From Flavobacterium croceum DSM 17960 (GTDB lineage: Bacteria > Bacteroidota > Bacteroidia > Flavobacteriales > Flavobacteriaceae), in NCBI RefSeq assembly GCF_002917885.1, contig NZ_PQNY01000003.1, positions 124,001 through 188,000 of the forward strand: 64,000 bases of DNA, read 5' to 3'. The notes beneath the pieces were generated by a model. The model had not been told where the DNA came from, searched no databases, and saw only the letters and a list, made by a program, of their open reading frames with translations. Positions 51,133-54,118 of this stretch are shown here, in pieces. How positions within the stretch are numbered: the stretch's first letter is position 1; every line of letters starts with the position of its first letter. Both the position numbers and the translations under genes were made by a program.

Positions 51133-52266
51133 ATGGGCGGCATCTACATTCATATTCCTTTTTGCAAACAAGCGTGTCATTACTGCGACTTTCATTTTTC
51201 TACCAACATGAAAAAGAAAGAAGAAATGGTATTGGCGTTAGCCAAAGAACTCGAATTACGAAAAAAAGAATTTCAAAACCAAACCGTAGAAACAATTTAT
51301 TTTGGTGGTGGCACACCAAGTATCTTAACGCTAGACAACCTATTATTTATTATCGATACCGTTTACAAGCATTATCAAGTAACTAAAAATCCAGAAATTA
51401 CACTAGAGGCAAACCCTGACGATTTAAGTGATGAAAAAATTAAGTTATTGGCACAATCACCAATTAATCGTTTATCGATAGGCATTCAATCTTTTTTTGA
51501 TGATGATTTAAAATTAATGAATCGCGCTCACAATTCAGGAGAAGCTAAAAAGTGTTTAGAAATTGCATCACAATATTTTGAAAACATTACTATCGATTTA
51601 ATTTACGGCATTCCCAATATGTCTCAACAAAAATGGATTGAAAATATCGAAACAGCCCTGTCGTACAATATTCCTCACATTTCGAGTTATGCACTTACTG
51701 TAGAACCCAAAACGGCTTTAAACACTTTAATACAAAAAGGCAAAATAAATGCACCGAGCGATGAAATGGCAAAAAAACATTTTGATATTTTAACTCAAAA
51801 ATTAAAATCAGAAGGTTTTATACATTATGAATTATCCAATTTTGGCAAACCCGATTATTTTTCGATAAACAACACAGCCTATTGGCTTGGTAAAAAATAT
51901 ATTGGCATAGGGCCTTCGGCACATAGTTTTGATGGCAGCTCTAGAAGTTGGAATATTGCAAACAATTCGCTTTATATCAAATCTATACAAAGCAATCAAT
52001 TACCTAGTGAAACCGAGTTTTTGTCCAAAATCGACAAATACAACGAGTATGTTATGACTGGTTTACGAACCATTTGGGGTATCTCTTTACAAAAAATAGA
52101 ATTGGAATTTGGAAAAAAAACGTTAGACTATCTCTTAAAAAACGCTCAAAAACATCTTGAAAACAATGCTCTCGAAATTAAAAACGAAACACTAACAATT
52201 ACCGAAAAGGGTAAGTTTTATTCCGATGGAATTGCAAGTGATTTGTTTTTGTTAAATTTGGAGTAA
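51133..52266 (+). CDS. hemW: HemW, radical SAM heme chaperone
   Basis: 377 residues. The radical-SAM cluster is PFCKQACHYCDF with C11, C15 and C18. Following motifs are FGGGTPSIL, LEANPDDLS and LSIGIQSFFDDDLK, and the C-terminal HemN domain has NTAYWLGKKYIGIGPSAHSF. HemW proteins of this length bind heme and act as heme chaperones rather than coproporphyrinogen dehydrogenases, which are longer and carry an extra N-terminal region. ATG 51133. A mobile-looking GxxExxY cassette begins immediately after the stop. Confidence 0.94.
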   Translation: MGGIYIHIPFCKQACHYCDFHFSTNMKKKEEMVLALAKELELRKKEFQNQTVETIYFGGGTPSILTLDNLLFIIDTVYKHYQVTKNPEITLEANPDDLSDEKIKLLAQSPINRLSIGIQSFFDDDLKLMNRAHNSGEAKKCLEIASQYFENITIDLIYGIPNMSQQKWIENIETALSYNIPHISSYALTVEPKTALNTLIQKGKINAPSDEMAKKHFDILTQKLKSEGFIHYELSNFGKPDYFSINNTAYWLGKKYIGIGPSAHSFDGSSRSWNIANNSLYIKSIQSNQLPSETEFLSKIDKYNEYVMTGLRTIWGISLQKIELEFGKKTLDYLLKNAQKHLENNALEIKNETLTITEKGKFYSDGIASDLFLLNLE

Positions 52267-52267
52267 C

Positions 52268-52310
52268 TTAAACGCAAAGTTCGCAAAGATTTACGCAAAG
52301 TTCACTAAGA
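52268..52310 (+). repeat. Left terminal inverted repeat of the GxxExxY cassette
   Basis: Contains CGCAAAG at three positions (starting 52273, 52282 and 52294), then TTCACTAAGA. Differs from the right repeat at five positions only. Confidence 0.85.
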
Positions 52311-52342
52311 AAATAAATATAAACGCCAAAATAAAACAATAA

Positions 52343-52720
52343 ATGAGAGAAAACGAATTGTCTAAAATCGTGTTTGATTGTGCGTTAAAAGTCCATCAAA
52401 CTTTAGGTCCAGGACTTTTAGAAAGTGCTTATGAAGAATGTTTATTTTACGAATTAAAAAAAACAAGATTGTATATTGAAAAGCAAAAAGCACTTCCATT
52501 AATATATGAAGAAGTAAAACTAGATATTGGTTACAGAATTGATATTATAATAGAAAACAAATTAATTTTAGAAATAAAATCGGTTGAAGCATTAAATGAT
52601 GTACATTTTGCACAACTAATGACTTATTTAAAATTAACAGATTGTAAACTTGGAATGTTACTAAATTTCAACGTTTCATTAATTAAAAACGGAATTAAAC
52701 GTGTAGTTAATAATCTTTAA
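52343..52720 (+). CDS. GxxExxY family protein (PD-(D/E)xK nuclease-like)
   Basis: 125 residues. The family motif is G24-L-L-E27-S-A-Y30 in TLGPGLLESAYEECL. Downstream, YRIDIIIENKLILEIKS supplies D67 and E77-x-K79, the layout of a PD-(D/E)xK nuclease core, and the ending AQLMTYLKLTDCKLGMLLNFN is also conserved in the family. Biochemical function is unestablished to my knowledge. ATG 52343 follows an AT-rich leader within the inverted-repeat cassette, and the stop is one base from the right repeat. The gene and its flanking repeats evidently form a unit. A self-mobilising or repeat-targeting nuclease is an attractive but untested reading. Confidence 0.85.
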   Translation: MRENELSKIVFDCALKVHQTLGPGLLESAYEECLFYELKKTRLYIEKQKALPLIYEEVKLDIGYRIDIIIENKLILEIKSVEALNDVHFAQLMTYLKLTDCKLGMLLNFNVSLIKNGIKRVVNNL

Positions 52721-52721
52721 A

Positions 52722-52764
52722 ATCTTAGCAAACTTTGCGTAAATCTTTGCGCTCTTTGCGGTTA
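52722..52764 (-). repeat. Right terminal inverted repeat of the GxxExxY cassette
   Basis: On the minus strand it reads TTAACCGCAAAGAGCGCAAA followed by the ATTTACGCAAAG core and TTTGCTAAGA. Ends four bases before the next start codon. Confidence 0.85.
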
Positions 52765-52768
52765 AAAA

Positions 52769-53524
52769 ATGAAAGCAACAATCAATAATTTCCAAATCGA
52801 CCTATCAAAACCCATTGACATCTCGATTTCATTATCCAATACAGAAACAAATCCAATAGCATGGTATATAGAAAAACCTGTTATAGAACCCGTTACCTTT
52901 GGAGAATGGATAGGAAAAGTTTCTAAAGGAAGTTCTACCAACTTTAACAATATTTTTTTTAATCCACACGGTCATGGTACACATACAGAATGTTTGGGGC
53001 ATATTACCCATGAGTTTTACTCTATAAACCAATGCTTAAAAAAATTTTTTTTTACTGCCGAATTAATCACAATTACTCCCAAAAATTACAACACAGACTT
53101 TGTTATTACAAAACAACAAATTCAAGATGCACTTAAAAATAATACACCAGAAGCCTTAATAATAAGAACTTTACCAAATAGTAACGACAAAAAATCCAAA
53201 AACTACTCACATACCAATCCGCCTTATTTAGTAGAAGAAGCTGCCGTTTATCTTCGTGAAATAGGCGTACAACATTTGCTAATAGATTTACCAAGTGTAG
53301 ATCGAGAAGAAGATGGTGGCGCACTTTTGGCACACAAAGCTTTTTGGAATGTACAAAACATTACCAACCTTAACCCCGATGCTCGCTTGCATTGCACAAT
53401 AACCGAAATGATTTTTGTCGAAAACACTATTGCCGACGGTAATTACCTTTTAAACTTGCAAATCGCTTCGTTTGAAAACGATGCTACGCCCAGCAAACCT
53501 GTTTTGTACAAAATTATAGCTTAA
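52769..53524 (+). CDS. Cyclase-family (kynurenine-formamidase-like) hydrolase
   Basis: 251 residues, PF04199-type fold. N-terminal DLSKPIDISISLS matches the family opening. The metal motif reads NPHGHGTHTECLGH (H67, H69, H72, E74) instead of the usual HxGTHxD, so ligand spacing differs from the KynB type. The C-terminal part shows HLLIDLPSVDREEDGG and HCTITEMIFVE. Related enzymes hydrolyse N-formylkynurenine or other amides and lactones; the substrate here is unknown. The ATG at 52769 sits just outside the GxxExxY cassette, which may have displaced its native promoter. Confidence 0.85.
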   Translation: MKATINNFQIDLSKPIDISISLSNTETNPIAWYIEKPVIEPVTFGEWIGKVSKGSSTNFNNIFFNPHGHGTHTECLGHITHEFYSINQCLKKFFFTAELITITPKNYNTDFVITKQQIQDALKNNTPEALIIRTLPNSNDKKSKNYSHTNPPYLVEEAAVYLREIGVQHLLIDLPSVDREEDGGALLAHKAFWNVQNITNLNPDARLHCTITEMIFVENTIADGNYLLNLQIASFENDATPSKPVLYKIIA

Positions 53525-53973: not shown

Positions 53974-54027
53974 GTATTATTTTTGATTGTTTTTTAGAGC
54001 ACCTACATACTATTTCAATGTACTTGC

Positions 54028-54073
54028 ATTCCTGCTTTTCGCACTACAAGGTAGTTTGCTACAATCAGGGCTA
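54028..54073 (+). repeat. Interspersed intergenic repeat, copy E (minimal form)
   Basis: ATTCCTGC...AATCAGGGCTA in only 46 bases, with a 5-bp ACTAC/GTAGT hairpin in the middle. It is the shortest of five copies and helps define the conserved ends. Confidence 0.65.
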
Positions 54074-54118
54074 AAATAGAAATACCATTTTTCAGAACAA
54101 AAATTTTAAACATACAAC

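Follow-up and report, generated by a model that had tools for sequence, protein, structure and literature searches.

The described systems to which we compare the locus of this study are REPIN/RAYT and the REPtrons. REP doublets form hairpins and are found near specific RAYT genes, as stated in PMC3116915. According to PMC6006769, there is generally one tnpA-REP gene per REP type in REPtrons, and apparently no transposition as a unit. The window analyzed here, a stretch of 64,000 nucleotides from Flavobacterium croceum DSM 17960, carries a single GxxExxY gene enclosed by inverted repeat arms between hemW and a putative cyclase gene. With a probability of roughly 0.58, we consider this cassette to be the gene-bearing member of a hairpin family, whose predicted Cas4-like nuclease would recognize the heptads of its own arms and would spread gene-free hairpins with the same arms.

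The features of the cassette are summarized in Table 1. Two 43-nt arms lie inverted around one gene, each with CGCAAAG three times at spacings of 9 and 12, a fourth, degenerate heptad 9 nt further in (CACTAAG in the left arm, TGCTAAG in the right arm) and TTAA as the outer end. A sequence-only reading of the locus had already described the threefold CGCAAAG, its spacings, the TTAA ends and the identity at 38 of 43 positions, all of which was borne out. It had also placed the left arm correctly (52268-52310), while the right arm was found at 52723-52765 and not at 52722-52764, where 13 of 43 positions align. Similarly, the left arm does start one base after the hemW stop, which ends at 52266, and the right arm ends three and not four bases before the cyclase ATG at 52769. 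The inverted-repeat score of the window arms was 30.5 compared to a best score of 17 in 20 shuffles (two-base blocks; copies 300-700 nt apart), and given these scores it is unlikely that the arms arose by chance. Folded as single-stranded DNA, the cassette yielded a z of -6.9. No transposase of known kind was found between the window arms. Elsewhere in the window, the RNA family Flavo-1 (RF01705) gave a sub-threshold match at 54024-54076 on the minus strand (L035:2756-2808; 32.4 bits versus a gathering score of 42).

Table 1. Features of the GxxExxY cassette and its surroundings (window coordinates).
Feature	Position	Strand	Description
Left arm	52268..52310	+	TTAA lead, then four heptads; 38/43 positions identical to right arm
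Left-arm CGCAAAG heptads	52273-52279, 52282-52288, 52294-52300	+	from sequence
Left-arm fourth heptad CACTAAG	52303-52309	+	from sequence
Left-arm spacers between heptads			2, 5 and 2 nt
Right arm	52723..52765	-	same four heptads, then GTTAA; from sequence
Right-arm heptads	CTTAGCA 52724-52730; CTTTGCG 52733-52739, 52745-52751, 52754-52760		
GxxExxY gene	52343..52720	+	125 aa, predicted single-domain PD-(D/E)xK nuclease
GxxExxY gene motif residues			H18, G24-x-x-E27-x-x-Y30, D67, E77, K79, Q91-x3-Y95
hemW (left neighbor, conserved)	51133..52266	+	radical SAM + HemN_C; orthologue beside junction in 86 genomes
PF04199 putative cyclase (right neighbor, conserved)	52769..53524	+	present in 136/150 genus genomes
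hemW/cyclase junction	52267..52768	.	recurrently occupied: cassette, hairpins of several families, GIY-YIG cassette, or empty elsewhere

The encoded protein matched TIGR04256 GxxExxY (E 6.5e-43; 145.8 bits versus a curated cut-off of 35) and PF13366 PDDEXK_3 (E 3.8e-41), in agreement with the earlier description of a single GxxExxY gene with D67, E77 and K79 between the arms. Up to an E of 1, three Pfam matches were obtained (PDDEXK_3, SfsA and Cas_Cas4), and Y1_Tnp (Y1/HUH) was absent among them. The protein shows the D...(D/E)xK motif on a predicted restriction-endonuclease-like fold, which defines the PD-(D/E)xK superfamily. Among 48 aligned homologues D67, E77, K79 and Q91 were invariant, as were G24, E27 and Y30 of the motif G24-L-L-E27-S-A-Y30. 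C33 represents the one nearly invariant cysteine of the family alignment. The family has at least 8000 database relatives. GxxExxY genes were present in 36 of the 60 relatives; among the 117 Cyanobacteria genomes sampled, 26 had such genes above the family cut-off. In the literature searched, we found no described function for GxxExxY (TIGR04256 / PF13366) and nothing that ties the family to repeats.

In order to score arms, the best ungapped inverted match between left and right flank was used with a threshold of 14, and windows from the same loci served as controls. In the own genome and its relatives this score was reached at 77 of 90 GxxExxY loci versus 2 of 124 control windows (92 of 132 matches fetched, mostly the higher-scoring ones; 2 with cut flanks dropped). 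The wider named-genome sample, 81 loci from several phyla and one viral contig of which 2 with short flanks were dropped, gave 51/79 versus 6/1318. For Cyanobacteria 29 of 30 loci were found positive versus 2 of 120 controls (33 loci, 3 short ones dropped; two sub-cut-off matches unused). In an additional set of eight named genomes, which included three Bacteroidota, 6/17 loci passed versus 0/68 controls (20 loci, 3 short ones dropped, three fragments unused), and four of the failing loci carried direct repeats scoring at least 40. The arm-test samples share a few loci. Direct repeats were enriched, too, with a score of at least 16 at 15/79 loci versus 5/1318 controls. Flanks drawn from two different loci reached a score of 14 in 62 of 600 draws, because arms of different loci have a common motif. 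The general plan consists of a TTAA-type lead in part of the loci, followed by 2-4 units of 7-9 nt with regular spacings. That the repeats belong to the gene was thus supported in the own genome and its relatives as well as in Cyanobacteria.

Three GxxExxY genes were found in the own genome. Another inverted repeat (GCCACGGATTAAA...) encloses the second gene (L002), while the third (L003) has a 45-nt direct repeat on both sides (L003:1434-1478 and 1864-1908; 89% identical) and a weaker inverted match with a score of 18. As the repeats of L002, L003 and the window all differ, each of the three genes possesses flanking repeats of a separate family. Across genomes, the unit words (CGCAAAG, CACATAG, CACAAATT, CATATAAG, CGCAGATT and others) differ by protein clade and not by genome. 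Unit class, which was given to 131 of 171 loci with 40 left unclassified, required 22 changes on the protein tree compared to a shuffled mean of 59.8, and none of 200 shuffles was as low. Since many close copies occupy the same site, a Mantel test was run on 128 loci with arms and limited to those pairs, 7916 in number, whose flanking genes are not homologous. Arm similarity was found to rise with protein identity (r 0.28), with 0 of 300 permutations as high and a maximum of 0.15. Within-genome paralogues showed an arm similarity of 0.228 (91 pairs), i.e. no higher than the 0.218 of between-genome pairs below 45% identity. One genome (G029) contains eight GxxExxY genes with a range of units.

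Covariation of unit and protein would be predicted if the protein recognizes its unit, and from these comparisons we infer such recognition. Coevolution is also expected from plain binding. In that case the arms might be regulatory, acting as operators or as an mRNA hairpin in autocontrol, and the gene-free hairpins described below might be protein-bound transcription or mRNA-stability elements, with no movement involved. The iterated heptads do resemble operator sites, and the distance between arms and gene is short; in many Cyanobacteria 10-30 nt separate the arms from the matched reading frame. On the other hand, the invariance of the catalytic residues in 48 homologues argues against a purely regulatory role.

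The unit-family patterns were searched in 60 relatives using the reversed pattern as control. CGCAAAG-type arms were found 142 times in G004 (control 1), 105 times in G006 (control 1) and 55 times in G015 (control 2), while 13 matches stood against 11 for the control in G036. CACATAG-type arms numbered 120 in G006 (control 0), 90 in G015, 64 in G008 and 62 in G004, and CACAAATT-type arms 38 in G015 and 34 in G006. Exact AACACATAGNAACATAG matches amounted to 87 arms in G006. Repeats with and without a gene, for which the sequence-only reading had proposed to search, thus both exist, the gene-free copies in some of the relatives. In the own genome no gene-free CGCAAAG hairpins were detected, as the arm pattern was found only at the window cassette, and the number of CACATAG-type arms was 0.

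Thirty of these 87 CACATAG arms of G006 were fetched, and several of them pair up as opposite ends of a single element. None of the 30 was contained in an ORF of at least 110 aa compared to 601 of 660 control positions, and 18 of them had an inverted partner at most 260 nt away. Two gene-free elements folded with z-values of -5.6 and -5.8. Strong folding and a position outside of long ORFs are both in line with the regulatory explanation. However, the gene-free copies contain more than arms. In the CACATAG-family gene locus of G006 (L233) the segment AAAGGCGTTTCACT and inner ACATAG units are located between arm and gene. The gene-free CACATAG copies retain the AAAGGCGTTTCACT segment and the inner units, now abutting or nearly so, and thus look like the cassette minus the gene. 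A GGCGTTTCAC-like motif, subterminal in the gene cassette, adjoins 21 of the 30 arms versus 1 of 120 control windows, and such a non-arm segment in gene-free copies points to copying rather than regulation.

Genomes with at least 8 CACATAG arms, counts that include each cassette's own arms, comprised 6/6 of those with the CACATAG gene lineage versus 8/54 of those without (Fisher 6e-5, uncorrected for phylogeny), and within the genus 6/6 versus 8/31 (0.0013, likewise uncorrected for phylogeny). Most of the 21 CACATAG arms of G022 are clustered in an array next to its cassette. Segments with arms were seen to be locally duplicated in tandem beside this cassette (C1:2697050-2698407) and beside that of L006 / L060, the hemW junction of G001. 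For the CACAAATT class at least 3 arms were present in 6/6 genomes with the gene class versus 8/31 without, an association that became weaker at higher thresholds (5/6 versus 7/31; 4/6 versus 5/31). In a 400-kb stretch of G006 we counted 52 strong hairpins, while a single block-shuffled copy had none. Gene-type units are borne by 14 of the 52, with classes matching G006's own genes.

An in-frame stop was observed in 14 of 168 full-length GxxExxY copies, which fits a selfish gene in decay. L233 is broken, with a TAA where the catalytic glutamate would be encoded, and the CACATAG-lineage gene of G015 carries an in-frame TAA at another position. In the hairpin-rich genomes G004 and G008 no gene of this lineage was found. 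As the genomes richest in CACATAG arms thus possess a broken gene (G006, G015) or none that was found (G004, G008), the hairpins outlast the gene. By eye, the CACATAG gene lineage (L233, L235, L230, L227) apparently resides between ABC permease-like and ATPase-like genes in several species.

The cyclase gene was found in 136 genus genomes, of which 89 were taken by cyclase similarity; 3 remained unparsed, leaving 86 hemW/cyclase junctions. A GxxExxY cassette was present in 20 of these, a CGCAAAG-like gene-free hairpin in 20 and an AATCCG-like gene-free repeat in 18, a class that includes the long junctions L154 and L168, which hold more. Further 14 junctions were empty, 7 contained a GIY-YIG gene enclosed by an inverted repeat of a different kind and 7 were of other types. 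Thus, the empty-site alleles for which the sequence-only reading had proposed to look do exist in relatives. TTAA targeting was not supported, with no TTAA or other target duplication in 9 distinct elements and TTAA in only 4 of the 14 empty junctions. On the hemW plus cyclase tree the six junction states required at least 42 changes versus a shuffled mean of 53.1. As none of 200 shuffles was as low, some inheritance of the states is indicated. Sister species of one five-species clade differ, carrying the cassette (L058, L059), a GIY-YIG gene (L055), a hairpin (L062) or an empty site (L051). Several gene-free junction hairpins were seen by eye to bear the AAGG-spaced arm type of the L008 clade (L056, L061) or the GCC-led arm type of L216/L220 (L162, L164 and others). 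Since these are arms of other GxxExxY lineages, the families seem to have arrived separately. This alternation of hairpins of several lineages with empty alleles at one and the same junction argues against the regulatory explanation, as do the copied subterminal segment and the invariant catalytic residues, and we regard this explanation as unlikely.

The GIY-YIG gene (PF01541 for the L036 copy) at 7 of the 86 junctions (L036, L044, L045, L055, L187, L190, L204) was enclosed by its own inverted repeat in all 7 cases, with ATGCTGAACTAG or ATCCTGAACTAG on the left and TTCAGCAT on the right. It is a second nuclease family on the same cassette plan. Other small genes were observed at the junctions of L189 and L191 beside single heptad remnants, e.g. 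AACCGCAAAG in L189. A general hot spot may exist at the hemW/cyclase junction.

All 27 hemW-site GxxExxY sequences, of which 23 are distinct and eight belong to a second collection (partly of the same genomes), formed one clade with an SH-aLRT of 89, below the program's star level, and 0 of 102 sequences from elsewhere fell inside. As its gene copies are one clade, the cassette stays put at the junction. Among all pairs at least 80% identical, homologous genes were present on both sides in 124 of 145, while 447 of 520 pairs with 70-80% identity were without common flanking genes, some of them cross-phylum; a few loci were counted twice in this comparison. Therefore, the gene changes place, but rarely. 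Cross-phylum pairs may partly result from MAG contamination. One contig labelled Rhizobium sp. (L069, CALPLL020000220.1) carries the Flavobacterium hemW-site gene with hemW and cyclase neighbors, probably as a result of such contamination. From these sequence comparisons the moving unit appears to be the gene-free hairpin and not the gene cassette. Of the earlier idea that a nuclease recognizes the repeat ends and drives its own spread, the first part agrees with the unit/protein covariation expected from it, whereas the gene cassette as the mobile unit was not supported. Two collinear stretches were aligned over 343 kb, with an identity of 94.1%. Gaps of at least 30 nt numbered 12 within alignments and 9 between blocks, and by eye about seven of these were judged to touch hairpin-like repeats. 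Given so few hairpin-like indels, hairpin movement is rare or old.

A site-locked clade of nuclease genes could also be explained by homing, in which the gene invades existing hairpins via a central cut, so that gene-free hairpins are targets and not products. The hemW-site genes are indeed scattered on the host tree, where the cassette state alone required 18 changes for 20 species (shuffled 18.2; at least 9 forced by well-supported branches). Identity of the gene was correlated with that of hemW less strongly (r 0.46) than identity of the cyclase (r 0.71). Codon outliers resembling recent exchange made up 5 of 351 pairs (best L182/L066). The CACATAG cassette minus its gene also corresponds to a gene-free element with abutting inner units, which under homing would be an uninvaded target. 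However, the same-codon fraction of the gene (0.587) was close to that of hemW (0.593) and cyclase (0.562), and the 351 pairs gave no general sign that the gene had recently spread into the site from one species to another. Moreover, efficient homing into hairpins would lead to the opposite of the fixed gene-bearing sites and the dozens of gene-free copies found in single genomes. Homing is thus regarded as quite improbable.

Finally, another enzyme, e.g. a Y1 (HUH) REP transposase, might move the hairpins, with the GxxExxY genes as mere passengers between two of them. Y1 transposase matches were detected in 10 of 12 genomes tested. Using the same strict pattern, units on both sides were found at 0 of 28 Y1 loci (28 of 36 Y1 matches examined) compared to 65 of 167 GxxExxY loci. 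Furthermore, G004 and G029 carry hairpins and have no Y1 match, and a passenger would not match the unit by protein clade. We consider this explanation very unlikely.

Because GxxExxY genes sit in lineage-specific arms and gene-free copies with the same words occur in some relatives, GxxExxY likely spreads hairpins, much as is proposed for REP-associated transposases and REP elements. Cleavage and mobility by the protein, which we infer from sequence, might proceed as follows. In single-stranded DNA the arms would pair to a hairpin, and the nuclease would bind the heptad pairs and cut near the TTAA-type outer end. The freed hairpin would then insert between genes elsewhere without target duplication. 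Inheritance at the home site prevails for the gene copy, which often gets lost or broken by stops, with hairpins left behind; in the own genome the CGCAAAG family is reduced to the gene-bearing copy of the window. We see about an even chance that GxxExxY proteins represent a second, independently evolved REPtron-like system of stand-alone Cas4-like nucleases, which would recognize iterated heptads of folded DNA and multiply intergenic hairpin families in Bacteroidota, Cyanobacteria and further phyla, with paralogue-specific code words. If GxxExxY spreads hairpins, the family would gain a function and a class of intergenic repeats its source, and two nuclease folds without relation to each other would have given rise to REP-like hairpin elements. 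The pairs of paralogue and unit form a table of protein variants and expected DNA words, which makes the idea directly testable.

In comparison to known systems, the gene-free copies resemble MITEs in having the ends and the subterminal sequence of the gene-bearing copy. They differ from MITEs, as no known transposase and no target duplication were found and the gene-bearing copy seemingly seldom transposes. Unlike Cas4 / RecB-type PD-(D/E)xK nucleases, the GxxExxY protein is a 125-aa stand-alone domain inside its own repeats. Iron-sulphur Cas4 proteins possess a set of cysteines, whereas GxxExxY has the one nearly invariant C33. Compared with the descriptions in PMC3116915, PMC8266576 and PMC6006769, several features are common to GxxExxY cassettes and REPIN/RAYT (TnpA-REP, REPtron): one gene lies between inverted repeats whose family is specific to its lineage, each gene lineage has a separate repeat family with several lineages per genome, and the gene keeps its site while repeats disperse between genes as gene-free, hairpin-forming doublets, which was observed in the relatives, the own genome being without dispersed copies. 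In contrast to REPIN/RAYT, the gene does not encode a Y1 HUH (RAYT / TnpA-REP) transposase; its product lacks any Y1/HUH match and is predicted to be a PD-(D/E)xK nuclease. The arms consist of iterated 7-9-nt units and not of single short palindromes with a GTAG-type foot, and Y1 genes in the same genomes have other flanks than GxxExxY genes. As the HUH enzyme is absent, the system is not a member of REPIN/RAYT. Nevertheless, by analogy we read the GxxExxY cassette as working most like REPIN/RAYT, i.e. in a REPtron-like manner with a Cas4-like nuclease in place of the HUH transposase.
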